DNA of 64,000 nt from Nepenthes gracilis (Eukaryota > Streptophyta > Magnoliopsida > Caryophyllales > Nepenthaceae): NCBI GenBank assembly GCA_033239525.1, contig BSYO01000014.1, positions 3,051,351 to 3,115,350 of the forward strand, written 5' to 3'. Under the pieces are notes generated by a model. It was not told where the DNA came from. It was given only the letters and a program-made list of their open reading frames with translations, and did no database searches. This document shows, piece after piece, positions 8,901-43,300 of the stretch. Made by a program: the position numbers and the translations under genes. Position 1 is the first letter of the stretch, and each line of letters starts with the position of its first letter.

Positions 8901-11900
8901 CCAAGCTGTTAAATCAAGGGCACAACTTCTTCAGGCTTTAGCAGATGCCAAAGTTGAACTTACCAGTCTCCTTTCTGCTCTTGGAGAAAAGACTATAGTT
9001 GGATTTGTGAGTACTTAATATGATATAAGTTTCTTAGCTCATAACTTTTGACAGTGCATTTGGCTGCTGATTTCATTAATAAACTCGCATCATTATGCTG
9101 TTTTATTCAAATTGCAGCCTGTGAAGACTTCTGGAACAATTAAAGAGCAACTCACAGCCATAGTGCCAGTGCTGGAACAGCTATGCAAACAGAAAGAGGA
9201 GAGACTTAAGGAGTTCACTGATGTACAGACACAGATACAACAAATTTGCAAGGAAATTGCTGGAAATTTGAGCTCAAATGATCTGGCTGTTATGGTTGAT
9301 GAGTCTGACCTATCCCTGAAGAAGTTAGAAGAATATCATTCTCAGCTTCAAGAACTTAAGAAGGAAAAGGTAATACTTAATCTCTATGTTAATTCATCAG
9401 CACCATTGTCAATGTTTTACTGTGGGTTTTAATATGCTTTATTGATGTTGTAGAGTGAGCGTTTGCATAAGATCCTTGAATTTGTGAGCACTGTGCATCA
9501 TCTTTGTTCTGTTCTTGGGATGGACTTCTTCAGCACCATCACTGAAGTGCACCCAAGCCTGATTGACTCTACACACGGGCAGTTGAAAAGCATTAGCAAC
9601 GAAACTCTATCCAGGCTTGCCAAGACAGTCTTAATGCTGAAAGATGACAAGAAACAGAGGCTTCAAAAGGTAAATGGCTTCATAATTATTGAAGAAGATT
9701 TTATGATTTCATCTATTTGTAATGGTGATCTGTACATAAAGAATGAAACCTTTAACTCTCTCACCTACCCATTCCTTCCTGCTCTGCTGCTCTTGCCATT
9801 GATAAGTATTACTTCTTTATCTTCTGGCTTTTATACCCATAAATTTCTTTCAAAGGGCAGATTCCGACTTCTAAATGCAGGACTTGCAGCATCTTACATG
9901 GCTAAATAGATTTGAAGTTCTTTGTAGCTTTATTTGATAGTGGTAGTTGAGTTCACCTAAGATCATGTGTTTAAACCACAAAAATAAGCAAACACTCTAT
10001 CTACTACAATGAAGGGTGAGGCTATGTATTTTTGATCTTCCCTAGACTCCACAATCTGGGCACCTCGTTCACTGGGCCAGCATTTCTCTTCTCTTGCTGT
10101 GACTGTCATCCATTTTATTGACTTGCAAATGGAAAAATTTAAGGATCCATTCGAAATACCTATCAGCCAGTTCGTGTATTTTATGACGCAAGATAATGTC
10201 AATGAGAAATATCTGGAACCCTCATTTTGCACTGCCGGGGAGGAATGGGGTTTTCTATGGGCCCAAAATGAGGTTCAAATTTTCTATTGCTATAGAACTA
10301 TTTTATCTTTCTTCTAGTAATAGAGACAAAAGTATTAGAGTGCTGTTAGGGAAACATCTTTTGATAGTATGATATCTCATCCATCCATCTACACTCATAG
10401 ACCTACACAAGAATAGATGAATGGATTAATTCCACGTTATTTGACTGGTGTCTATTAAACATTTATCATAGTGTAAAGATTTTGTCTCCATGCAAAACTC
10501 AATAGTTTAAAAATGATGGCATATGTCCTTCACAGCTTCAAGAGTTGGCTGCACTGTTGATTGATCTTTGGAATCTGATGGATACACCAGATGATGAGAG
10601 ACATCTGTTTGATCATGTAACCTGCAACATATCTTCCTCAGTAGATGAAGTCACCATCCCAGGGGCTCTTGCCTTGGATTTGATTGAGCAGGTAACTATT
10701 GGCCCATATTGAATTAATGTTCCCGGCTGTTTATCTTTTATTTTATTGTCATTTGCATTTTAAGGCTGAGGTGGAAGTTGAGAGGCTTGATCAGCTAAAA
10801 TTCAGCCGGATGAAGGAAATTGCATTTAAGAAGCAGGCTGAACTTGAGGAAATATATGCTCATGCACACATAGAAATTGATGCGGAGGCTGCACGAGAGA
10901 AAATTTTGGCACTGGATGATTCAGGGAATGTTGAGCCTTCAGAGTTGATTGCTGATATGGACAGCCAAATTGCAAAAGCTAAAGAAGAAGCTCTTAGTAG
11001 AAAAGAAATACTGGACAAGGTCGAGAAATGGATGTCAGCTTGTGAAGAGGAGAGTTGGCTTGAAGACTACAACCGGGTAACTTTCTTAATCCTACTTTTT
11101 TAATAAGAATATAAAAAATAAACAGGTAGAAATTGGAGTAAAGCTGTCAAGGTGTGCCGTCAATGCAATTAAGACAATTTTCACCCCTATCAAACATGAA
11201 GAATTAAAAATGTCTTGAGGATACTATAGTATCTTTATGTCTGATTGTATTTTGTATTAACAAAATCAAACCACATACTCGGTGGAAAATAAGATTATGC
11301 AGTACTTAGTGATTTTTCTCAAGAATAAATAGAAACTAACATTGTTCTGGTCTTGTGTATATTGAGAACCAATCCGTGAGGACGTTCTATAGAAGATGGC
11401 AGCAGTTTTTCCTAACAATTGTATCTATCCTGATATTTACCATTCTGCCCTTGTGGCTTGAACACTTGAAGATGACAATTGGAACTTATTTTGGTCAGAT
11501 TGAATTGCCAAAACTAGTACCAATAAGGCCACGTGAATCTGAAAATTGACATGTGCCAAGTTTGTTTATAAAAGCGTGTGCCGTTCACACATAGCATGGC
11601 ATACTAAGACAATTTTAAAAAATTTAAGAACATTTGAATATCTAAGTATTTACAAGTGCCTTTACAATTCCAACTAGAGACTCAATCCATCTGTACAAAA
11701 GCTGAAGATCTACAACATTATTTTGTCAATATCTTAGTAAGCATTTTTAGTGTTGGTATTGCAAATATTGTCCAAATTGTGGCACTTCTTTTTCTTTTCC
11801 TTTCGCTTGGAAGGGTGCTGTTGTGTACATATACTAGTTAGTTCTTTCTCAAGACTTGCATCACTGCAGTGTTTAGTGACTTCCTCTGACTACCTTAACA

Positions 11901-13386
11901 GGATGAGAACCGGTATAATGCCAGCCGAGGCGCTCACTTGAATCTCAAGCGGGCGGAAAAGGCCAGGAATTTGGTAAACAAAATTCCAGGTGTGTATAAA
12001 AAAGGGACAATTCAGTGCATGAAACTCTTGTTATGTGTAGGGTCCGGGGAAGATTGGACAATTTTTGGGTCTATTACACACGATTTTATCTTGCATCAAC
12101 AGTTTTCATGTCTCGAACCCATGACCACCAATCACATAGCGATAACTCTACCTTTATACGATTTTACCTCGCATTAACAGTTTTCATGTCTCGAACCCAT
12201 GATCACTAATCATATAGCGATAACTCTACCTTTATACGATTTTACCTTGCATCAACAGTTTTCATGTCTGAAACCCATGACCACCAATCATATAGCGATA
12301 ACTTTACCGGCACTCCAAATGCTCCCTTTCTAACCAAATGAACTTTGATATGTTTGTGCAAGTTTCAGCATGCTGATTTTCTTTGTTCTGCACTTCCCAT
12401 GTAGCGTTGGTTGAGAGCTTGGTAGCCAAAACACGAGCCTGGGAGGAGGACTGTGGCTTGACGTATGAATATGATGGTGTTCCCCTGCTTGCTATGCTGG
12501 ACGAATACGCCATGCTCAGGAATGAAAGAGAAGAGGAGAAACGGAGGCTCAGGGTGAGTGATGCCAACTCAGAATCAGAGGTCATTGGCAAAATTGGCAT
12601 GGGCATGTTGGAGGAATGGTGATGATTCATCCTGACAATTTAAATATTGAGGATTATAACCATATATTAAAATGTGTTGGATTTATCTTATAACCTAAAT
12701 GTTTAAATTGCCATGATAAAATCATAACCATTGGGAGTAGGGAAGACTCTAGACCGGATGATGCATACAGCTCCGACGCTGGAGAATCATTTGGACCTTA
12801 ATCAGGTTTTGAGTGAGAAGGAAAGTTGACGAGGAAAGGAAAAAAATTATTTTTTCCTATATTTCTGCCAAAATTTCCTAATTCAAACAATGTTTCTGGT
12901 TCAAATTGAACTTGGGTTCCTAGGCCAACCTGCCCTGAGAGAAGGGAAATGGATAACATAGCTTGAAAGATGCGTCGGGACACTTAGGGTGATGTGAAGT
13001 TGTACATTTTTTTTTTTTGGGTAGGATGAATACTGAATGAATGGCCATTCATTTATTTATTCTTATGTAAAGTTTGTACTCTACAGGACCAGAAGAAGTT
13101 CCATGAGCAGATGAACACAGAACAAGAAGCCGTTTTCGGGTCAAGGCCGAGCCCGGCTAGACCGATAGGCACAAAGAAGGTGGTTGGCACACGCATGAAC
13201 GGAGGTTCAAATGGAACTCCGAGCAGACGTCTGTCCCTAATGGCCCATCAGAATGGTATCCGATCGGCAGCTAAGGATGGCAAGAGGGATTCCCGGCCTG
13301 TGGCTCCCGTGAACTACGTTGCCATTTCAAAAGAAGACGCAGTCTCTTTCGCCTCCGCCGCCAAGCCACTGCCCTCTACACCCTAG
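5921..13386 (+). CDS. MAP65-1: MAP65-1-type microtubule-associated protein (9 coding exons)
   Basis: Plant PRC1/Ase1-family crosslinker that bundles antiparallel microtubules in cortical arrays, spindle and phragmoplast. Coding exons: 5921-5992, 8803-9006, 9118-9369, 9454-9669, 10536-10691, 10765-11076, 11902-11989, 12405-12553, 13087-13386. They join in frame to 582 codons plus stop, close to the 587 residues of Arabidopsis MAP65-1. Most introns are phase 0; intron 7 is phase 1. Residues 1-24 match the family N-terminus in length and in the [10 protein letters not shown] motif. Residues 25-300 are coiled-coil rich. About 301-483 is the conserved spectrin-like microtubule-binding region ([38 protein letters not shown]). 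Residues 484-582 are the basic tail with RPSPARP and RRLSL, matching mapped phosphorylation sites in Arabidopsis. A second in-frame ATG at 5930 has the better context (G at -3 and +4). Intron 1 appears to be GC-AG (CAG|GCAACT). All exons are intact. Confidence 0.95.
6108..8640 (-). mobile_element. RTE-type LINE, degenerate, in MAP65-1 intron 1
   Basis: The minus strand translates, with many frameshifts and stops, to the domain order of plant RTE non-LTR retrotransposons. Endonuclease: a [12 protein letters not shown] block near 8270-8310 and a [11 protein letters not shown] / QIDYI region near 7990-8170. [12 protein letters not shown] near 7160-7190, an 'MIGFH' block near 6940-6960, and the catalytic box as MDDLLLVDE near 6835-6851. 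C-terminal: VRWFGHVKR at about 6332-6360. The 3' end lies near 6108, about 115 bases downstream of exon 1. The 5' end is approximate, and no target-site duplication was identified. It is antisense to the host gene and cannot make protein. Confidence 0.85.
9925..10100 (+). mobile_element. tRNA-derived SINE-like unit in MAP65-1 intron 4
   Basis: Begins with a box A-like 'agtggtagttga' and a box B-like 'tgtttaaaccac'. It continues into a body typical of plant SINE families ('agggtgaggctatgta', 'ctagactccacaatctggg', 'cctcgttcactgggcc') and ends in a T/C-rich tail near 10095. Recognition is by motif order only; the family was not assigned. Confidence 0.55.
12078..12310 (+). repeat. 78-bp tandem repeat, 3 copies, in MAP65-1 intron 7
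   Basis: The motif 'cagttttcatgtct' recurs at 12100, 12178 and 12256, exactly 78 bases apart. The rest of the unit (acccatgaccaccaatca, tagcgataact) is preserved with few differences. 78 is a multiple of 3, so short open frames run through it, but it lies wholly between the donor at 11990 and the acceptor at 12404. Confidence 0.9.
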
Positions 13387-15829: not shown

Positions 15830-18800
15830 GAGTGGGAGTGAAGTTAGTCGACTGCCGTGATGTCACAACAAGCTTCCAGCCTTTCCTTCGCAAAACCTTT
15901 GTCAACATATCTCGACCCATTATCATCCGAGCGACTTTTCCAATTGATAGTCGCCCATCATCAAAAACATCTCTCACCCAATGATATCGCACGTCAACGT
16001 GTTTTGGCCGAGAATGGAATGAGGAGTTTTTACATAAGTGAATGGTACATCGACTATCACAAAGAACCTCGTGACGTCTCTTGCCTTAGACCCATTCTTG
16101 GACAAACCTTTTCATCCAAAGCATTTCCTTACAGCCCTCGGTCACGCGATAAACTCTATACACTTGAGAGAGCGACGCACTTCCGCAACTTGACCGCCAG
16201 AGACCGCCCCTCCCGCAAATTTCACCAAGTATCCTGGACGTTGATTTCCGAGAGTCAACGTCCCCGCCATGTCTCGTTAGTATCAATCACCGAGGCTCCC
16301 CTTTTCCAAACCGCAAACCCGTCTTGGATGTCCCGCGTAGATATCTAAAATCTACTTCACCGCACTCAATGCTCCATACCCGGGTTTGAGAGGAATCGCT
16401 CACAAGGCCAACCGCACGAGCAATGTCCAGGCCACAGCGTACACCTACTGTACATCAAGTCGCCAATGGCCGAGGAGTAAGGAATCTTACTCATTCGTGC
16501 CTTCTCGATGTCCGAGGACGGACACGCCGCTTTTCTCACCTAAAGTGGTTGGCGAAAGGGGTACCGACAGGCTTGGAGCTTTCCATGTCAATCTTTGTAA
16601 GCACTTTTTCAACATAGCATTCCCCGGGACAGCGAAGCTTCTTGCCCTCTCGGTCATGAGAAATTCGATCCCCCAGACTGCTTCACGGCCCGAGGTCTTT
16701 CATGGCAAAAGATTGCCCTAGTTGCTTCTTCAGCTCCATGATCCGAGCACTATTCCGTTCGACCACCAGCATGTCATCTACATAAAGGAGAAGGATGACA
16801 AAGTCGTTTTCTGAGAACTTCTGAACAAAGACACAGTGGTCCGAAGAAATCTTATTGTACCCTTGTCTGACCATAATAGACTCAAACTTTCGATACCATC
16901 ATCAAGCTTGTTTTTACCATACAAGCTCTTCTTCAAACGGCTGACAAGTCCTTCTTTCCCTTTGACTTCAAAGCCATCCGGTTGCTCCATGTAGATCTCT
17001 TCCTCTAGATCTCCATGGAGAAAAGTCATCCGAACGCCTAGTTGCTCAACCTCTAAGTCCAAAGCTGCCGCACCGGAGCACTACACGGACCGAGGACATC
17101 TTCACAACAACGTGCGAAGATTTCATCAAAGTCAACACCCTTTCGTTGACCAAAGCCCTTCACCACAAGTCGTGCCTTGTGTCTTGGCTTACTTGTATCC
17201 TCAGTTGCCTTCAGGCGGAAGACCCATTTGTTCTTCAGAGCCTTCTTTCCCTTGGGCAATTTAGCCAGCTCAAAGGTATGGTTTTTATGAAGAGAAACAA
17301 TTTCTTCCTTCATGGCTTCAAACCATTCATCTTTCTGAGCGCTACTCATGGCCTCATCAAAATTCTCTTCCAGTTCTCCAAGATCGGTGAGGAGGACAAA
17401 CTCACTTCTTTGGAAGGCGGACGGACGGACGGACGCCTCACTGACGACAGCCCCATCTTCTTGGGGGCCACCTCGGCCCGAGGAGGTGCCAAATCTTCAA
17501 CTGTGTCCCGAGACGTAGGAACCATCTCATCTTGGTTGCTGCGCCACGCCCGCCCGACATCGGACTCGGGAAGGCCTTTGGGACCAGACAACATCGAAGA
17601 TCAACTCTGTCCGTCCGGGAAGTAGTGGGAGGAGACTTCTGCTCCTTCCCAATGTCCTCGATGGTCTCGTCCTCAACGAAGACCACGTCGCGGGACCGCA
17701 CCAGCTTCTTTTCCTTTGGGTCATAGAACCTATACCCAAACTCACCCTCGCCATAGCCTAGAAAGACACATTGCATTGTCTTTGGTTCCAGCTTGGTCCT
17801 TTCATTTCTCGGGACATGAACAAAGGCTTTGTAGCCGAAAGTCCGAAGATGGCTGTATGCTGGTTCCTTTTCGGTCCAAATCTGCTCTGGAACTTCCCCG
17901 TCCAGAGGTTTACAGGGCGACCGGTTGATCACGTGGGCGGCCGTCTTCAAGGCCTCGGCCCAAAAGGATCCCGGAAGCGTCCAGAGGTTTACAGGGCGAC
18001 CGGTTGATCACGTGGGCGGCCGTCCTCAAGGCCTCGGCCCAAAGGATCCCCGGAGCCCTGGCCTCGGACAACATGCACCTGACCTTTTCTATCAGGGTGC
18101 AATTCATCCTCTCGGCCACGCCATTCAGCTGTGGCGTCTTAGGTGGAGTTTTCTGATGTCTGATGCCATGAGCTCTACAGTAGGCATCAAACGTTCAATA
18201 TATTCTCCGCCGTTATCGCTCCGAACGGCCTTTAGTCTCCTCCCGGTCTCCCGCTCAACGAGGACATGGAACTGCTCAAAGGTTCCCGCAACCTGATCTT
18301 TGGTCTTCAAAGGGAACACCCACAGCTTCCTCGAGCAATCATTAATAAATGAGACAAAATATTGTCCTTCCCCAAATGACTTCTCCGGGAGGAGACCACA
18401 CACATCAGTGTGGACGAGCTCCAAGACCTCGGACCTCTTGGAAGACACATCTCTTGAAAAGGAGACTCTGTGTTGCTTCCCCGCCATGCAGTGAGGGCAA
18501 GTCCTCGACATGTCTCCATCCACTCGTGGGATGAGGCCCTTCTTTGCCAGATGACTCATGCCATGCTCACTCATGTGTCCGAGTCTTTTATGCCACAAGC
18601 CCGAGGACTCCACACTCCCTGTAGCATTCACCTCTGCTACCTCGGCCTGGGCTTTCACTACGTAAAGGCCTGAAGCCTTTACTCCTGCAACCACCATGGA
18701 GCCCTTTTTCAACTTGAAACGCCGTCCACGAGAAGACGCTACAAAGCCTTCATCATCAAGTCGTCCCACCGAAATGATATTCATCCGAATATCGTGGACG

Positions 18801-19854
18801 TGTCGGACGTCCTTCAAAGTCAATCGGGCTCCAGTGCTTATCAGCAAGGTGATGTCACCACGTCCAATGAACTCGGACGTCTCCTTGTTGCCCATTCTTA
18901 ATACTCCTGGGGCGCACGGAGTGTAAGTGGAGAACAGTTCTCTCCTGGAGGTAACGTGGATTGAAGCGCCAGAATCCACTACCCAATCCGAGGATTGCTC
19001 AGCCACGGCCACTAAGTCCTCAGACTCGCAGGCCAAAAGGAGATCTTCTCCTGTCACAACAGAGACCGAGGACTCTTCCTCGCCATGTCTCTTCTCGCCC
19101 CTTTGCTTGGTAGCGTTTTTACGCTTCCACTTGTAACAAAACTTCTTGATGTGGCCTTTCTTGCCACAATGGTGGCACTCCATGTCTTGATACCGGGAAC
19201 GTGACTTACTCCACCCTTTGTCTTCAGACTTTGGGCCACATCCTCGGCTCATTCCCCTGTATTCAGTAACAAGGACTTCGGAGTGCTGAGAGGTGGACGA
19301 GCCTTGAGAACGCCGTCGCATTTCTTCGTTCAGCACAGCTCCTTTGGCCATCTCTAAAGTCACCACGCCATTTGGAGCTGTATTGGCAATGGTGATCCTC
19401 ATAACCTCCCACGAGTCGGAGGGTTGCAAGAACCATAGTCCGAGGACCTCATCCTCGAACTTGATCCCCACGCCATTCAGCTGTCCACGCAGCCCCAAAC
19501 TCATTCAGTGATCGGCATGATGACCCATCCTTGTACCGTACTTACATCAGCTGCATCAAGTGAAAAATTTTGTTATTTCCAGATTTGGAGGCAAAGAGCT
19601 TTTCCAGCTTTTCCCAAAGCGTCTTGCCATTGGACTCACCCCGAACGTGGTTGTACACGTCGTCCACAAACTGCCGTATATAGCCGCACACTTGCTTGTG
19701 CTCCAACGTCCACTGCTCGTCCGTTTTATCTGGCACGCTTTGCTTTGGCAAAAACGAGATTATGCATGGACTTTACGGTGCAAGTCGACATCTTGCTTTG
19801 CCAAGTGTCAAAGTTTGATCCGTTCAAACAGATCATCTTACTTCCAACCTCCAT
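15830..19854 (-). pseudogene. Copia gag-pol, broken by frameshifts
   Basis: Gag begins at the ATG at 19854-19852 (MEVGSKMICLNGSNF) and includes the CHHCGKKGHIKKFC zinc knuckle near 19130-19180. Protease has WVVDSGASIHV near 18950-18990. Integrase shows HKRLGHM and CPHCMAGK (HHCC), HTDVCGLLPEKS and RSDNGGEY. The longest uninterrupted stretch is 18125-19504. RT is split among frames: KNKWVFRLKA near 17220, FLHGDLEEEIYMEQPDGFE near 16970-17025, LLLYVDDMLVV near 16770-16800. The RNase H region and C-terminus (MGRDMLTKVL) end beside the polypurine tract near 15850-15930. A 79-bp duplication and several one-base shifts destroy the frame. Confidence 0.92.
17900..18057. repeat. 79-bp perfect-spacing tandem duplication in copia integrase
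   Basis: The word 'gtccagaggtttacagg' occurs at 17900 and again at 17979. The whole intervening 79 bases are repeated with only a few changes. 79 is not a multiple of three, so the duplication shifts the integrase frame. Confidence 0.9.
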
Positions 19855-34300: not shown

Positions 34301-37300
34301 CTTAACCCCAATGAGGACAATAAACAATATCCCAAATTTGATTATCTTATAGAGTGTTAAAATCATTTTGCATAGCTAGTCACCAACACACATGATTAGA
34401 GTAAGTGTGAGGTATAAAATGATCAAGAGCGGTTGAATAGCATAATGAGAGAAGCCATGCCTCTCAAGAGGTTGTGAAACCCGAGTAGGTCAACAAGGCA
34501 CATGTGAAACATGATCAGGTGGCGATTTAGGATTAGGAAGGGATAGTGAGCAACGTCTCTAATACAGAAGACTTGGTTGGAAATGACTAAATATACCCTT
34601 CTAAGCTTCAAAAGGAAGTACAATAGATGAAGAGGTAGTATTTCCACGGGAATGAAAGAAGTTTTCGTTTTCAAAAAAGGCAAAAGACCACATTATGGGA
34701 GATGCAGAGTTTGTTTGCATTTGTGTCATAGCATATGAACCTTTATGAGAGTTATTGTACCCAAGAAAAGTATACTGAACATATTGAGCAGCAAACTTGT
34801 TTCACTCATTGGAAGGTAAGTGAACAAAACAAAACCAAAATTATGTAGAAAATCATAGTCAGGAGGAATGCCAAATAAATGATGGTATGGAGGATCATGG
34901 TGCAGTGTTGTTGAAGGGAGACGATTAATCAGGCACGCTGTTGTACACAAGGTTTACACCCAACAACGGGGTGGGACAGATGATTCAAGTAATAAGGAAT
35001 GAAAAACATCCAAAATATGTCATTTTGTTGAAGGATAGGGACAATATGTTCAGAAAAAATTCTTTTCTTTTGTAGAAAAGTGTGAAATTCTTGAAACATA
35101 TAATCACCTTATAAATTAGAATGAACTTTAATGTATTCAAGAATTGAGTTTCTATTTATGCAACTAAAACTTGGAAGATAGAAAACAACTCAGTTTTGGA
35201 TCTAAGAAAGTAGATCCATGTGAATCTATTATAATTATCAATAAATATGATAAAAAATTTGTATAGAGTATGAAAAATATAGGGATTATTCACCAAAAAA
35301 TGCATAGGTGCGATGGCTGTGTGGCACATAAAGTTTAATTTTACCAATTTTACAATATTTACAATTGAAAGATATTTCAGAAGACAAAATATTATTGATA
35401 TTACTAAAATAATCATTTTTTATGAAATGAGATATAGAATAAGAATATGATATTTTAATCTCTATACCACAAACAGCTATTATGAGTAATAGTAGAACCA
35501 ATATAGGATAAGGAACAGAAAATGGCATAGAGGTAAACATCCCTTTTTAGGCCACTTTGCTATTACCTATGTTGATACTTGATCTTATACACAACCATTT
35601 TGATCAAATGGAATAATATATTATTGGTATACTAATTAACCAACTGAAATTAAACTAGTAGAAGTTAGGAGAAACAATATAATACGAACCTCCAGTTGCG
35701 GTGACTTGTAAATTGAAGGAACGAAAAGAAATTTGGAAGAGAAGCAAGGGAAGGGGAGTTCAGTAGAGGGAAAGAGAGTGAGGAAGACGGGGGAAAGCGA
35801 GAAGAGAAGGGAAAACAGAGAGTTCTGAGAGATAGACAGGGAGGGGGGAAATGTGACTTAGAGAGAGAGAGACTGAGGGTGTCAAGGAGTGTGGAGAATT
35901 GAGAAGCAAGAAGAAGGGAAATATCTTTTCTCTTTTCTCTTAAATAACAGGACAATAATAAGCTTTATACAGGAAGGGGTTGCGGCACCTATGGCCGAGC
36001 AAAGTAACAACAACATAACAGAAAGGGAAGGAGGTTATAACAATCAGAAAGAAACGTGCAGGGGTAGGGACAGGGGGTTATAATAGAAAAAGGGAATAAA
36101 AACAAAATGGGAAAAAATCAAAAAAAAGGGGAGGGGAAAAAAGACAACAGGTAAAACAGAAGGCTTGTAACATTACTATTCCCATCAAAAAAACCTTATC
36201 CTCAAGGTAGAACGAGGAAGGGTGTAGACTAAATTCAGCAACTGCTTCCCAAGTGACCTCCAAATCCCAACCAGTCCAACCCTCAGTATCATACTCAAGC
36301 CCTGACAATGAGGTGAAATCAGAAGGGATGCAAAAGTTGCGAAGGACAATGCACTGGCGTGTTCGTAAATCCTCACTAGCACCCATGCCAACACCAACCC
36401 AGATTCATAATTCCCACCAGCCCAAATTGGGTAAATGCATGTGTTTATCCTCACACCAACACTAGCACCCACTGCAATGAGTAGAAATCTAGTGACCGCT
36501 GTATGGATGAATACCCTAGTTCTATATCAAAATACTTTAATGAAGTAATACGTCGATAAAAACACTCGGACCCCATATTCACAAGGCTTCAGTGCAGGAT
36601 AGAGCTTTAGATATGTAGCACAAAATCCAATGAAAAACATGCCACAAATAATTACAACTTCTTCCAAATCTCTAGCCAAAGTGGACATATATGCCATGCC
36701 CAAGGCAAGCCCTCCGGCGGATAATGTACCCAATCCACAGATAAATCTTTTACTAAGAGTCATCCACATGCTAAATCCGAAGACAACCACCACTGTAAGA
36801 GTTGCCCAAACAGAATAACGACTAACGTTTTCGAATGGCTCCTTCAAGAAAGTCAGGAGGGAAATAAGCATCAAGGCAAGGCCCCATAAAATGGCTTCTA
36901 ACTGAACTTGAGGCGAAATGCTGCTAAAAGGAATCCGTGTCCCATTAAGAGAGTTAAACAATGTAGGTCCAAATTCAGAGCAATCCTCATCAAGCCGTGA
37001 TGGGGCTTGTTTCAATTGTATGGTATCATATGGAGCAATTTTAAAATCATATGGGGACCTCTGACCTTTTGGTGCAGTGTCGCCAGCTGCAGTGATTGTA
37101 GGAACTATTGATCTAAGGGTCAGCAAGACCTCAAACTGGAAAACTTTAGTACACATGCCCGAACTTAGCATAGGACCTGCAAGGCCCTCATGGAACCATT
37201 CTTGCAACTTACCATCAGATTTGGATGATGTGGATAGTTTGAAATCATCAGCAGAACCAGATCGAACCCTGTGCTAACTACTTGCATCCCTGTCAAGCTG

Positions 37301-40300
37301 AATTTCTAGGGGGTGGCCATGAATTCCCATTCGGTGATCAATCAGGCAAGAACCATCAGTGACCAATAAAGTTGGGAACATATCAAAACCACCAGCAACA
37401 CAAAGCTTCAGAATCCTTTGAATTTCAGTTTGAACATCAACTCTTTCTTGTACTGGAAGATCTCCAGAGCATCTTCCATATGCATTCAATAGTATGATCC
37501 ACCACAATCTAGAATCTATAGGAGCTACATGGCCAATTGCAGCCTCGCCAGAGTTGGGATCCAATATTTTTTCAGTGGCAGAATCATTACCATCTAGAGG
37601 AACAGGTTGTACCTTAAAACTGGCAAGCATCAAACCTTGTCCCGGACTATGGCAATCCATGGTTTTCTGCCAGCTAGAGTTAGCAGTCTCTTGAGTTGAT
37701 GTTGCATTGCTCTTTTGAGTTGAAGCCCATGTCAAGCAGTGATCAAAGTTATAGAATTTGGCATTAACATTATCCAAGGCATTGACCACAACGACTAAAT
37801 TCTCCCAAGAGGTATCATCAAATACATTTTGTCTCAGGGCTAGCATGATTTTGACGAGCTTCGATATGAAGCTGGGGGTTGATCGACGTGGCAGTTGCAG
37901 CCACAATTCTTGAATTTAAGGGCCTGAAGCCATGGGTATCCAATGGTTCAGTGGGGATAGACTCCACGAAATTGAAGTAGGAGGACTGAAAGAGTGGATG
38001 AAACTTCCCAACGCTGGCCTTGGCAACTTCTTGTCCAACACTACCACCAAACATAGTAGCCGTGGAATTCAAAACAGCCCCCACACCCAAGGTGAAGTGT
38101 CAAAGCAAATTATGGACAATCTCTCCCAACCTCCTGTCACCTGAAGTATCATTTGGACAGTTGACAAATGAAATCCATTGGCGGCCATCTTCCTTTGATC
38201 CAGCCATAGCATTGTGACCTAACTCCAAAACGGATGTAAGAGTAGGATTGTCCATATGTGGCTTCTCACCATGGACGTCTACAACAGTAAATTCAGGACC
38301 AAAGTCACAGAATACATTGCCAAAAAGGCCATGTACGTCAAATTTTATGAAGACTATTGCAGGCTAATGATTGTGGCAATATTCATCAAATTCAATCGAT
38401 TTATCCAGGCTGATATTTGTACACACAACAGCCTGAAATTCTGAAAGTCCACCGTTCGTTAGTTCAGCTGATAAAGTAAAAAAACTCACAGAGTTGTTCA
38501 GTTCTTGCAACTTTAGGACAGAAGTAAGGGTGCGAGGTTTTCCCACGTCATCCTCTTAAGCAACAAGATTGCTGAGGTTTTCCCATGTCATCCTCTTAAG
38601 CAACAAGATTGCTGGACAAGTCGCGCAACTCCACCAATCCTTCATCATGTAGTGTCACTGGCCCCATATCAGCATGAATGAGATTTTTGGTAGAGAACGA
38701 GATTTCAAGTTTGGGCAAACGGAGATGGGAGACGATTTGGGCATCTGGTTGGGCATGAAACATAGCTGCTGAGGTTTGAGCAGGTTGGGGTAAAATCTTG
38801 GAGGTTGAAGCTGTGAACGGTAAGGGAGTTTGAAGAACAGGGGGAGTTGCGAACGGCAAGGTTTGTCAGTCGAATAGGTTTATGGATTGACAGATTTCAG
38901 CGAGGGATTTTTGGGTTTATGCAGTGGTGGAAGTAGTGGTGGTGATGCAATCATGGCCTCCAGTAGCATCAGTTCCATTGTTTGGAACTCGAACGAAAGT
39001 AGCGATGTGAAAATCGGGTGATGCATGTGGTAGTAAGGGTGTGGTTTGCGATGGCGGTGAGATCTTGATGTCTGGTTGTGACGTGAGCAATAAGGGTAGG
39101 GTTTGAGGTGGAGGGTGAGAATCAACCAAGGTCGAAAGTGCAAATGGTGTAGGGGTGGGTAATAAAGGGGAATGTGAGGTTGACAGACGTTGTCGTTCGA
39201 ATCGAGTGAGGGATTGTTGAATTTTAGTGATGGATTGCTGGATTGTATTGAAGGTTTGCAGGGATTGTGCAAAGGTGGTCGAAATTGTGGTGATGGCTTC
39301 TGCATGTTGCCGAACATTTGCGGCGACATCTTTCACCTCCTTTGAAAACCTTGCCATGGAAGCTTTGAGCGCCGTTAGTGATTATTCTTCGATCGTCAGG
39401 TCTTCTACCAAGTCTCAACGAAAGCACCAAATGATATGAACCTCCACCTGCCGTGACTTATAAATTGAAGGAACGAAGAGAAATTTAGAAGAGAAGTAGG
39501 GGAAGGGGAGTTTAGCAGAGGCAAAGAGAGTGAGAAAGATAGGGGAAAGAGGAAAGAGAAGGGAAAATAAAGGGTTTTGAGAGAGAGACCAGGAGAGGGG
39601 AAACGTGACTTAGAGAGAGATTGAGGGTGTTAGGGAGTGGGGAGAATCGAGAAGTAAGAAGAAGGGAAATATCTTTTCTCTTTCCCTTTAAACAACAGAA
39701 CAATAATGAGCTTTATATAAGAAGGGGCTGTGGCACCCATGGCGCAGCATAGTAATAACAACATAACAGAAAGGGAAGGGGCAGGGGGTTATAATAGAAA
39801 AGGGGAATAAAAATAGAATGGGATCAAAATCAGAAAAACAGGAGGAGGAAAAAAGAGAAAAGGAAAAACAAAAGGCTCGTAACATAATAACATTGTTAAG
39901 TGAAATCCTAAGATTTTTTATTGCAATAATAGTTAGAGTAATGCCATCAACTTACCAAGTATGGACACCGACACAGAACATAGATACGACATGACACCAA
40001 CACGCCAACATGTTATTCTTTTAAAATTAAGGATACAATACGTTGAGATACGTAAACTAAAATTATAGTTTATAATTTTTGTAATTGATAAACACTACCT
40101 TTTATACTAAATTTGTGGGTTATCACCTTCATTTGTGATGAAAAAAATTAAATTATTGCTTCATGAAAAATCTAATCACTTTCATTTTCTTTACTCCATA
40201 TTCGCCTTTTCTTTTTTGAGTCATGACTTTGCATCCTATAAAAATTTGGTGAAAGAAAAATATCGCCTACTATAAAGGGAGTCTCTCTTGGCTGTGAGAT

Positions 40301-43300
40301 AATCCTAGGGAGAGGGGACTATTGATAGAAATGAAAGAATAAGGTATGGTTTTAAATTTTTTAAATTATAAAACAGCCTACATTTTTTAAAAATTTACAA
40401 AATGACCCACAATTTTTTAAAAAAATCATAAAATTACTCAACATATCTAAAATGTATTGGAACATGTCCAAAACGTGTCGGGATATATTCAGAATATGTC
40501 CAAAATGTATTGAGACATGTCTGAAATATGCCAGACAAAAATAAATAAATAAATTAACACTTGTTGAAGCGTGTTCGACATATGTCCAAGGCATGTCGGT
40601 GTCCAATTCATGTCAGACACCGACACTTTGAGCCTAAAAGAATATCTGTGCTTCCTAGCCATCAGATTTCTATATACTGCTCTCCATCATACTTTCATAA
40701 TCATGTATGACTTTGGGCTGCCTGCCATAATTGGAAGCATAGAGTTAATCAACCAGGAGGAAATATCATGCTTATTCTTATCTTAGAGACCAACTATAGG
40801 CAATGGACCATCTGTTGGACCTAAACAGCGGTGATCGTAAAGGAAGGACCTGGCACAAAATCGTGGTGGCGAAAACAGTTTCAATATTGGATTAAACATT
40901 AGTATGGAAACCAGAATTGGGCCGATTTTGAGTACCTACGTGGCAATCATCAATAACGTGTCCTTCCTTCTTATAATAATTATAGAACTTCTTGCTACAA
41001 TATTTTGTAATGTGCTCAATTTTTTTGAAATTGTGACATAGTGGCGGAGATTTAAATTGTCCTTTCCCTTGAGCTATATAGATGATGCTAATTAATTCTA
41101 CGCTTAGTGTCTTGAGTAATATCATATTAGGAAGCAAGACATTCTTCTTCATGTAAGAGTTCCCCTAAGTAGACGTCTAGGGATGGAATGGGTTGTCGAT
41201 TAATCAACCTAGCTCGTAATCAACTTCATTTGGAATTGATCTTGTTGGCTCTCAAAGTGTAACTCTCATACAGCTGCTAAGGCTTTTGTGGAAACCCTAG
41301 ACTATACCAAGTAGGATAAAACCTGAATTGAACTATTTAATAGACAGATTCTTTTGTTTAATAGTTTCTAATGTCTAACCAATTGCAACTTCGTGGCTGA
41401 ATTATCATGATAATAGACCCTTTGTAGGTATTCCCACGTCACCTTAACAGTGGAGAATAAACAGAAGTCCTTGATCATATGAGATTCAACCTAGTAGCCA
41501 AGAAATAATCAGAGCACCTTGCTGTCCCAAGATGACATTCATTAGGTTCACTAGGGTCATAATTTGCTACATCCACATACCCCCATAGATCCTTACCTTT
41601 AAAAACATTTTAAATTGAAATATTCAAGTCAAATAATTTTTCGCATGGAACCAAATAATAGAATTTTCACTTGTCATTTTGCAAGATATTGTACCCCTGA
41701 TAAATACAATGGGTCTTCTTTAAGTCACATAAAAGTGCACATGCCTCCTAGAAATCACACCTTCTTTAAGACGATTCACCCAATAGAAGTAGACTTCAAT
41801 AGAGTGAAAGAGATAAGTAGAGTCACCTAATAGATAAAGCCTTTGAGAAAGAGAGAGAAGTAGATCTACTTAACCCTATATATGAAGCCTTCAATAAAGA
41901 GGGGATAAGATTTGCACACAAGACCTTGACAGCCTTGGCAGCAAAGAAATCACAAGATCCCTTCCAAAAGGAGCTTTCACACCAAAAGATCACTTAGTCT
42001 CAGCCCCAGAGACTTGATTGAAAGGCTCCACAACCCAAATGGTTCTAATATGACCTATTGAACAACAGAATCATATTCAGACCGTGCTGATAGAATCATT
42101 GAAATGCTCAAACCACACGAACTTAGTGAAAATTTACAACTGAAATCACAAAGTTGGCAGAGAATGTCTAATACCATGTCAATTTTTGTCATTGAGGTTT
42201 TTTCTCACTTAACAAACCGAATGAGCTCCTAATAACATCCCCTAATTCAGTATTACATCTTTCTTTCAAGGTAAGAATCCTTTCCTTTCTATACATATGA
42301 AACTATACAATAAATAAAGAATACAATAAACTAGGAAATGACATATTTGCTTGACTTGATTTACAGCCATGTGGATATCTTAAGTGATATATCTTCAGTA
42401 ACAGAAACCTGAAACTTAATAAAAGCACACACGTATCAAAAGCAAATGTGTATCAAATGCTTGTTCTAGTTGTCTCAGTGGACCCACATTCTACTGCAAG
42501 AGTAATTGAATGCAACTACTTGAAAAAAAAAAAAAAGTGACTTAGGAGGTCTCCAAAAGGACAGTTATATAGCAGTTAATAGACTGTGAAACAAACCAAT
42601 TTAGAAAATTACAAACTATATATCAGTGCATAAGATGTTTAGAAGGTACAAATACATCATGCTTTCCTAATCTTAGACCTGCTGGTATAAAAAGTATACC
42701 ACAATATATTTACAAAAATCAAATAGTAGCATGCCGATCATTAAAGATTCATACCATATCACCCTCTTTTACATACCAATGGATCTTATCAACAATCTGC
42801 AAACAAAATCATGCATTTCAGCATTTTTTGGGGTTGAAAAGGAATTAAAAACATACAAATATATGTGAAGTTTACATGACAGGGCTAACGAGAGAAAAAT
42901 TAGCAGCAGCAAAAACATATCAAACTAAACCAATTAGCTAAGAGCCCAAATACAAGGGATCATTTTCCACCGATTACCAGCTGCTAATTGTCAAATGAGT
43001 GTCCAACAATAAATAAGGAAAAATGAGCAACTTGAGCAAGAAGTAAATTTGTTGGGACATGAAAGGGTCAGATACGATGCAAGAGAACTAAATGATGTAA
43101 CATAGTGTCTGTGGTGTGGAAGAAGTAGCTTAGTTCAGCCTAAGCAATAGTTTGTAACCATTTGCTGCTAGATTCAATTAGCTAGAACTACCTACTATTC
43201 TTCTCATTCAGGGTCCCTTTCTCATTAAGAAATTGTAATTGGATTGAGATTTATAACAATTAAAATATCCAATAAAGCAAACCATCTTGAATCTCTACCT

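Follow-up and report, generated by a model that had tools for sequence, protein, structure and literature searches.

Maize Bs1 is a long terminal repeat (LTR) element that carries pieces of three genes and whose chimeric product is transcribed and translated, according to the available portion of its description (PMC13317346). A survey of maize B73 counted 425 LTR elements with gene fragments, none of which, in the available part of the report and under the conditions it applied, had more than one standard nuclear gene (PMC2774510); these conditions missed some cases, since Bs1 is itself a maize element. Gene captures by LTR elements of rice, maize and sorghum are also mentioned in the accessible text of another paper (PMC7264820). 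In the available portions of the literature covered, Bs1 was the closest precedent and the sole one with several genes. The subject of this report is an LTR retrotransposon of Nepenthes gracilis, located at positions 35680-39884, minus strand, of a 64,000-nucleotide stretch of contig BSYO01000014.1 (C14:3051351-3115350), here called the window. Between its LTRs are a gag start, sense-strand pieces of five unrelated host genes (E1 ubiquitin-activating enzyme, neutral invertase, a bZIP17-like protein, KMS1 and ALMT) and a pol-like tail.

As in Bs1 and in the single-gene captures of maize B73, rice and sorghum, so far as the available accounts describe them, an LTR element has acquired fragments of host genes, which in Bs1 too are unrelated to one another. 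The N. gracilis family differs from Bs1 in its many copies, in the five genes of its window copy, in the different gene sets of the relatives, and in a test suggesting that the frame, and not the residues, was kept. No report of such a Nepenthes family was found in a literature search that left the N. gracilis genome paper outside its scope, and the available text of the N. mirabilis genome paper (PMC12244726) makes no mention of one. We think it likely that the window element belongs to a non-autonomous, probably Ty3/gypsy family that has been lengthening a gag-led frame with host complementary DNA (cDNA), and that this frame was selected to stay open.

LARDs and TRIMs consist of LTRs and end regions without enzymes, and their interiors are largely non-coding. 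The N. gracilis family shares the LTRs and the enzyme-free ends, whereas its interior is derived from coding sequence and is biased in frame.

Host gene pieces and their RNA origin

The original prediction, made from the letters alone, had described an LTR element with intron-less pieces of three host genes (E1, invertase and ALMT) in element sense. Pfam, structure, protein and tblastn matches established all three, while the count proved too small, the bZIP17-like and KMS1 pieces having been missed. The order on one strand, determined by tblastn, was E1 residues 3-136, 261-368, 447-507 and approximately 557-569, followed by invertase 252-377, bZIP 589-671 and KMS1 154-214.

The first E1 piece (38256-38697, minus strand as are all the pieces; about residues 5-136 of P0121) begins at an E1 exon border and contains a 40-bp tandem duplication (38534-38613, two copies 98% alike by repeat comparison) that shifts the frame. 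The second (37908-38231, residues 261-368), the third (37733-37913, residues 447-507, the frame changing near 37829) and the fourth (37724-37753, residues about 557-566, 27 of 29 bases identical to the E1 gene on C25) skip the residues between them, as expected from the predicted loss of internal blocks. The E1 pieces matched structure sequences in the PDB (E=1.6e-4 and 1e-6) and E1 proteins in the protein database (E=2.0e-78). A 48-nt stretch (37676-37723), similar in copies L009 and L010 and longer in L020, separates E1 from the alkaline/neutral invertase piece (37298-37675), whose residues 252-377 correspond exactly to two parental exons and which matched the GH100 family in Pfam (E=3.7e-44), a PDB structure sequence (E=2.4e-32) and the parent in tblastn. 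The bZIP17-like transcription factor piece (37052-37297, P0001 residues 589-671) has one stop at 37274-37276, and the piece of KMS1, a VMP1-type vacuole membrane protein (36866-37048), covers residues 154 to about 209, the match extending to 214, into ALMT. Both were identified by protein search and tblastn; for the region 37297-36866 the matches were a bZIP protein from N. gracilis (E=3.9e-25, with 80% identity across 56% of the query) and, from many plant species, KMS1/VMP1 proteins (E=2.9e-15 at best). The ALMT piece (36410-36883, ALMT9-like, one stop at 36527-36529) gave Pfam matches of E=1.6e-35 and 7.8e-12, the best structure being AtALMT9 (E=3.4e-35), and is separated from the pol tail by a further stretch at 36288-36409. 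The gag, E1, KMS1-bZIP and pol-tail stretches had no Pfam match above the cut-off.

The E1 pieces likely derive from the gene on C25, to which their DNA is 81-87% identical (93% over the last 29 bases), as compared with 71-75% for the gene on C12 (89% over 27 bases). The introns of the E1 genes at residues 76/77 (C12) and 342 (C25) are absent from the window pieces, which are gapless across both positions. The invertase gene is interrupted after residue 251, at 306/307 and after 377, and the window piece lacks the 306/307 intron. In the bZIP gene an intron falls at 629-635; the window piece is uninterrupted there, its single one-residue gap lying near 598. The KMS1 piece falls within one exon and is uninformative on intron loss. 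Because the parental introns are gone, the pieces that could be tested (E1, invertase and bZIP) were captured from spliced RNA; the predicted lack of introns thus holds for E1 and invertase, and for bZIP likewise.

Pack-MULE, Helitron and CACTA elements copy genomic DNA, introns included. The N. gracilis element resembles them in carrying gene fragments inside a mobile element and differs in that the introns that could be tested are missing. Capture of genomic fragments by such a DNA element, a frequent event in maize according to the available part of PMC2774510, is scarcely credible here: it is refuted by the intron loss and by LTR pairs, and a gag core occurs in a relative. In the window, the 5' LTR (39432-39884, minus strand) and the 3' LTR (35680-36172, minus strand) were identical at 384 of 449 aligned bases (85.5%; Kimura two-parameter distance 0.165) in a direct-repeat comparison, in accord with the predicted LTR frame around the pieces. 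No inverted repeats of at least 30 nt were present in 34500-41500; Helitron ends were not looked for.

The family and its reading frame

The genome search was carried out on the window's own assembly (752.5 Mb). A query from the pol tail (36180-36480) gave 43 match rows, the window included. Thirty neighbourhoods of these matches (the window and 29 other places) were analysed, representing 32 of the 43 rows and 31 of the 42 outside the window; 11 rows at 10 places were left out. Scripted self-comparison found LTR pairs in 28 of the 30 (median K 0.133 over the 28). The pairs of L011 and L012 were doubtful (nested insertion, distance), so 26 are secure, and both copies were excluded from the set used for LTR insertions and deletions. 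At least two of E1, invertase, bZIP, KMS1, ALMT and WAK were present in 15 of the 30 neighbourhoods, and sister copies retain differing amounts of each gene.

Searches of the genome with the parent proteins, in which 47 of 622 E1 candidates and 67 of 122 invertase candidates were scored, yielded at least 72 match rows for E1, at least 77 for invertase, 61 for KMS1 and 34 for bZIP, true genes included. Among the 72 E1 rows listed, 16 begin at P0121 residues 2-3, the site of the gag/E1 join. At least two of the four parent genes lie together in 14 of the 122 same-strand clusters, counting the window, and are arranged as E1-INV-BZIP-KMS1; BZIP-KMS1 occurs twice in one of these, and the cluster at C36:12606752-12608354 carries all four genes, as does the window. 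The existence of further copies with the same gene order, proposed as a check, was thereby confirmed. Moreover, P0241 (Nepgr_031549) and P0242 (Nepgr_003956), both annotated as N. gracilis proteins, contain invertase, bZIP and KMS1 with an identical bZIP/KMS1 join. P0242, which corresponds to L014, retains more of bZIP, and P0241 continues into a stretch that looked ankyrin-like by eye and for which the element copies showed no counterpart at the thresholds applied. No chimera was recognized by name and length among the 120 of 798 matches listed in the E1 protein search.

Decay of the window copy, with its stops and frame change, might suggest retrocopies that landed successively in an old LTR element, or a chance join in the assembly. 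Such an origin is very improbable and is refuted by the recurrence of the order and the joins on different contigs and in the two annotated proteins. Since these proteins and the 14 genome clusters share the chimera or its order, the chain is not an assembly join, one of the outcomes that had been named as fatal to the prediction, and the window element is one member of a multi-copy family.

Other members carry other gene sets. An MCAfunc domain was found in L013 (E=2.3e-15) and L019 (E=1.3e-7, just under the cut-off), DUF3741 in L016 and L018, and CRAL_TRIO, below the cut-off, in L019. L020 has WAK_assoc together with ALMT in three stretches that lie within profile positions 3-454 of 471. A second set, comprising a MED25-like piece, a patellin-like piece, an MCA domain and an unnamed piece, occurs in L013, L017, L019, L028, L031, L032 and L033, and the pieces present vary from copy to copy; the MED25-like piece and three unnamed pieces were identified by eye only. 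In L039 (C18:2063200-2067700) E1 homology without introns spans 391 residues, and a tandem duplication of 938 bp (87%) takes in a second E1 piece.

L042 (C7:19705600-19710600), in which an LTR stretch is identical at 299 of 311 bases, is a younger relative with a single open chimeric frame of 966 codons. The frame comprises gag-like, E1, invertase, starch-branching-enzyme-like (by eye) and kinase parts, with Pfam matches to protein kinase (1e-27), invertase (2.2e-5) and an amylase-type domain (0.005, below the cut-off). The right half of L042 has at least 68 match rows in the genome, itself included, that are 83-100% identical (40 of 140 candidates scored). A 257-nt block kept in L045 (C12) is absent from L042, and a 483-nt block of L042 is absent from L046 (C7).

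The gag core, PF03732, was detected in L042 (E=2.8e-6), while the window copy had no match. None of the pol enzymes, in the order protease, reverse transcriptase, ribonuclease H and integrase, was found in the window copy by open reading frame (ORF) list and Pfam, and no core of a reverse transcriptase or of an integrase was recognizable in it. Across L009-L027, 19 neighbourhoods in all, no ORF of at least 150 residues with a YxDD motif was present, although a decayed reverse transcriptase could escape this search. Consequently, the label of a gypsy-derived, non-autonomous element is a likely one: the family is probably Ty3/gypsy, and the predicted gypsy assignment gains from the gag core of L042 and loses from the missing enzymes in the window copy.

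The joins between the pieces mostly preserve the reading frame. All eight window joins from gag/E1 through KMS1/ALMT were in frame (P=1.5e-4), the only frame shifts being those of the 40-bp tandem duplication and of a single site within E1. The E1-invertase join lies in an open frame of 213 residues (37277-37915), close to the 37274-37906 that had been predicted. The gag/E1 join was in frame in all nine copies scored. For the family as a whole, 72 of 81 join instances and, by majority, 25 of 28 distinct joins were in frame. The PATL, MCA, MED25 and UNK2 queries were cut from element frames, some from one frame and some overlapping, so the four join kinds that use these second-set pieces are weak; without them the counts were 60 of 68 instances and 21 of 24 distinct joins. 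When scoring was restricted to joins between externally defined proteins, the frame was kept in 18 of 22 instances and in 9 of the 11 distinct joins (P=0.0014).

The gaps between copies have a similar bias. The length was a multiple of three in 24 of 39 large-deletion clusters (P=3e-4) and for 18 of 29 distinct lengths (P=0.0014). Among gaps of at least 4 nt the share was 155 of 340 in the internal region as against 62 of 385 in the LTRs of the same family, and among gaps of at least 6 nt it was 155 of 266 as against 62 of 258. Despite the kinship of the copies, the LTR contrast is a fair control for gap phase. The host part of the window copy has six stop positions, two of which are the same stop in both copies of the 40-bp duplication, compared with 5.0 (2-10) expected from neutral decay, a count that fits a frame open at insertion without being decisive. 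The LTR distance corresponds to an insertion age of 6-12 million years at typical plant rates, that is, several million years followed by decay.

Routes of capture and loss

Three of the capture joins lie on exon borders, which hints at splicing: the gag/E1 join falls where an exon of E1 begins, and both ends of the invertase piece, exactly two exons long, are exon borders. A possible but somewhat doubtful alternative is exon trapping, whereby read-through transcripts of elements residing in introns were spliced from gag to host exons, reverse transcription fixed the chimera, and skipped or cryptic exons gave rise to some of the copy-specific gaps. At the point where invertase 377 is joined directly to bZIP 589 in the window, L009 has a 441-nt block that begins GTATTG and ends CTCTCAG and may have been spliced out elsewhere, and L010-L012 have a block of plant-gene sequence of approximately 970-1100 nt; both speak for trapping. 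However, the 441-nt block also bears a 4-nt T(C/T)AG repeat, the corresponding block of L014 ends in AA, and neither KMS1 154 nor the ends of the bZIP piece fall on parental exon borders. Furthermore, 37 of the 39 large-deletion clusters lack GT-AG ends, the null expectation for such ends being about 1%. A general role of splicing in the internal losses is not supported: only 2 of the 39 clusters between family copies (7 of 124 events) had GT-AG ends.

The deletions within E1, measured against the C25 parent, are inside exons and have no GT-AG ends, in agreement with copying errors, and one deletion in the L042 group falls on a short TGTGGG-type repeat. Both of these observations, and the small number of GT-AG clusters, would be accommodated by passive transduction as in maize Bs1, in which cDNA pieces were joined by template switching and the in-frame joins reflect chance or one early event. 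The ratio of nonsynonymous to synonymous substitution (dN/dS) likewise lies near the value from neutral simulation. We regard passive transduction as unlikely, since the joins keep the frame, the excess of triplet gaps is confined to the internal region and does not extend to the LTRs, and three joins lie at exon borders. The repeated template switching invoked by the original prediction is partly supported: the E1 deletions fit copying errors, but the joins on exon borders hint at splicing. For its serial transduction by one element, stepwise growth of a lineage is the better description, the gag/E1 join being in frame in every copy scored and the sisters differing in content.

Purifying selection on these host residues, although expected, was not clearly supported against the simulated neutral null. 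For the kinase piece, compared among L042 and its six sisters (L047-L052), dN/dS was 0.48 (bootstrap 0.32-0.72), at the low end of what a neutral simulation gave with the transition bias of the window LTRs (0.63; 0.47-0.85). Among the seven older modules (six host and one gag), six gave 0.54-0.76 and invertase 286-377 gave 1.72, values that have no simulated null of their own. As the residues show no clear constraint, the open frame, and not a particular protein, is read as what was kept.

Several points weigh against an actively maintained open frame in a gypsy family. The dN/dS values show no clear amino-acid constraint. The ALMT, WAK, gag and UNK queries derive from the elements themselves, and MED25 and UNK have no database support. 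Nine of the 81 join instances were out of frame. In the window the frame of ALMT differs from that of the pol tail, at a join outside the scoring, although this join was in frame in all 16 other copies scored. The P values are too small, because joins and gaps are shared by descent among related copies, and the triplet share in the LTRs (16%) is itself under one third. In addition, membership of the gypsy group depends on PF03732 in one relative and a presumed likeness to an integrase tail, and no autonomous partner was met in the family survey.

With these points considered, the reading we prefer remains a non-autonomous lineage that extends a gag-led frame and keeps it open. Pieces of host mRNA would have been added stepwise, through splicing of read-through transcripts, template switching during reverse transcription, or both, in particles that an autonomous relative provided. 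During subsequent rounds copies would have shed blocks, and selection would have acted against variants whose frame had closed. The open frame behind gag probably mattered, for example through escape from nonsense-mediated decay or a gag fusion packaged in cis, and not through the activities of the host proteins. The frame evidence from the family strengthens the suggestion that the element could have yielded a chimeric peptide.

Layout of the window copy and implications of the family

In element sense the 5' LTR begins TGTTA and ends TATCA, giving the TG...CA termini, while the 3' copy ends in TA through substitution. The putative primer-binding site would occupy 39412-39431 (minus strand), judged by its position next to the 5' LTR. 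Frame analysis placed the gag-like N-terminal frame at 38698-39357 (minus strand); it has two stops and stops short of the gag core. At the other end, a tail resembling the C-terminus of pol, together with the polypurine-tract region, adjoins the 3' LTR (36174-36287, minus strand), and its likeness is presumably to an integrase tail. The flanks CAATA (35675-35679) and TAATA (39885-39889) agree at four of five positions, as did 3.2% of nearby sampled flank pairs. The putative target-site duplication, previously described as near-perfect, is therefore supportive and short of proof. Elsewhere in the window, frames at 17056-19504 (minus strand) looked by eye like a Copia gag-pol with a zinc knuckle and an integrase core, and exon-like frames at 9052-13383 resembled by eye a gene for the microtubule-associated protein MAP65.

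Transposon chimeras occur among the gene models of N. gracilis (Nepgr_031549 and Nepgr_003956 at the least), which call for caution. A bolder extension, which we advance tentatively, is that the lineage needs a long open frame behind gag, is indifferent to its content and repeatedly recruits host exons as stop-free filler. If true, such a lineage would be a genome-wide exon-fusing machine that is still producing multi-gene chimeric frames. Given the family's numerous copies, its several gene sets and its young member with an open frame, what was a curiosity becomes a system in which capture at the RNA level, the keeping of frame and the passage of chimeras into genes can be tested.

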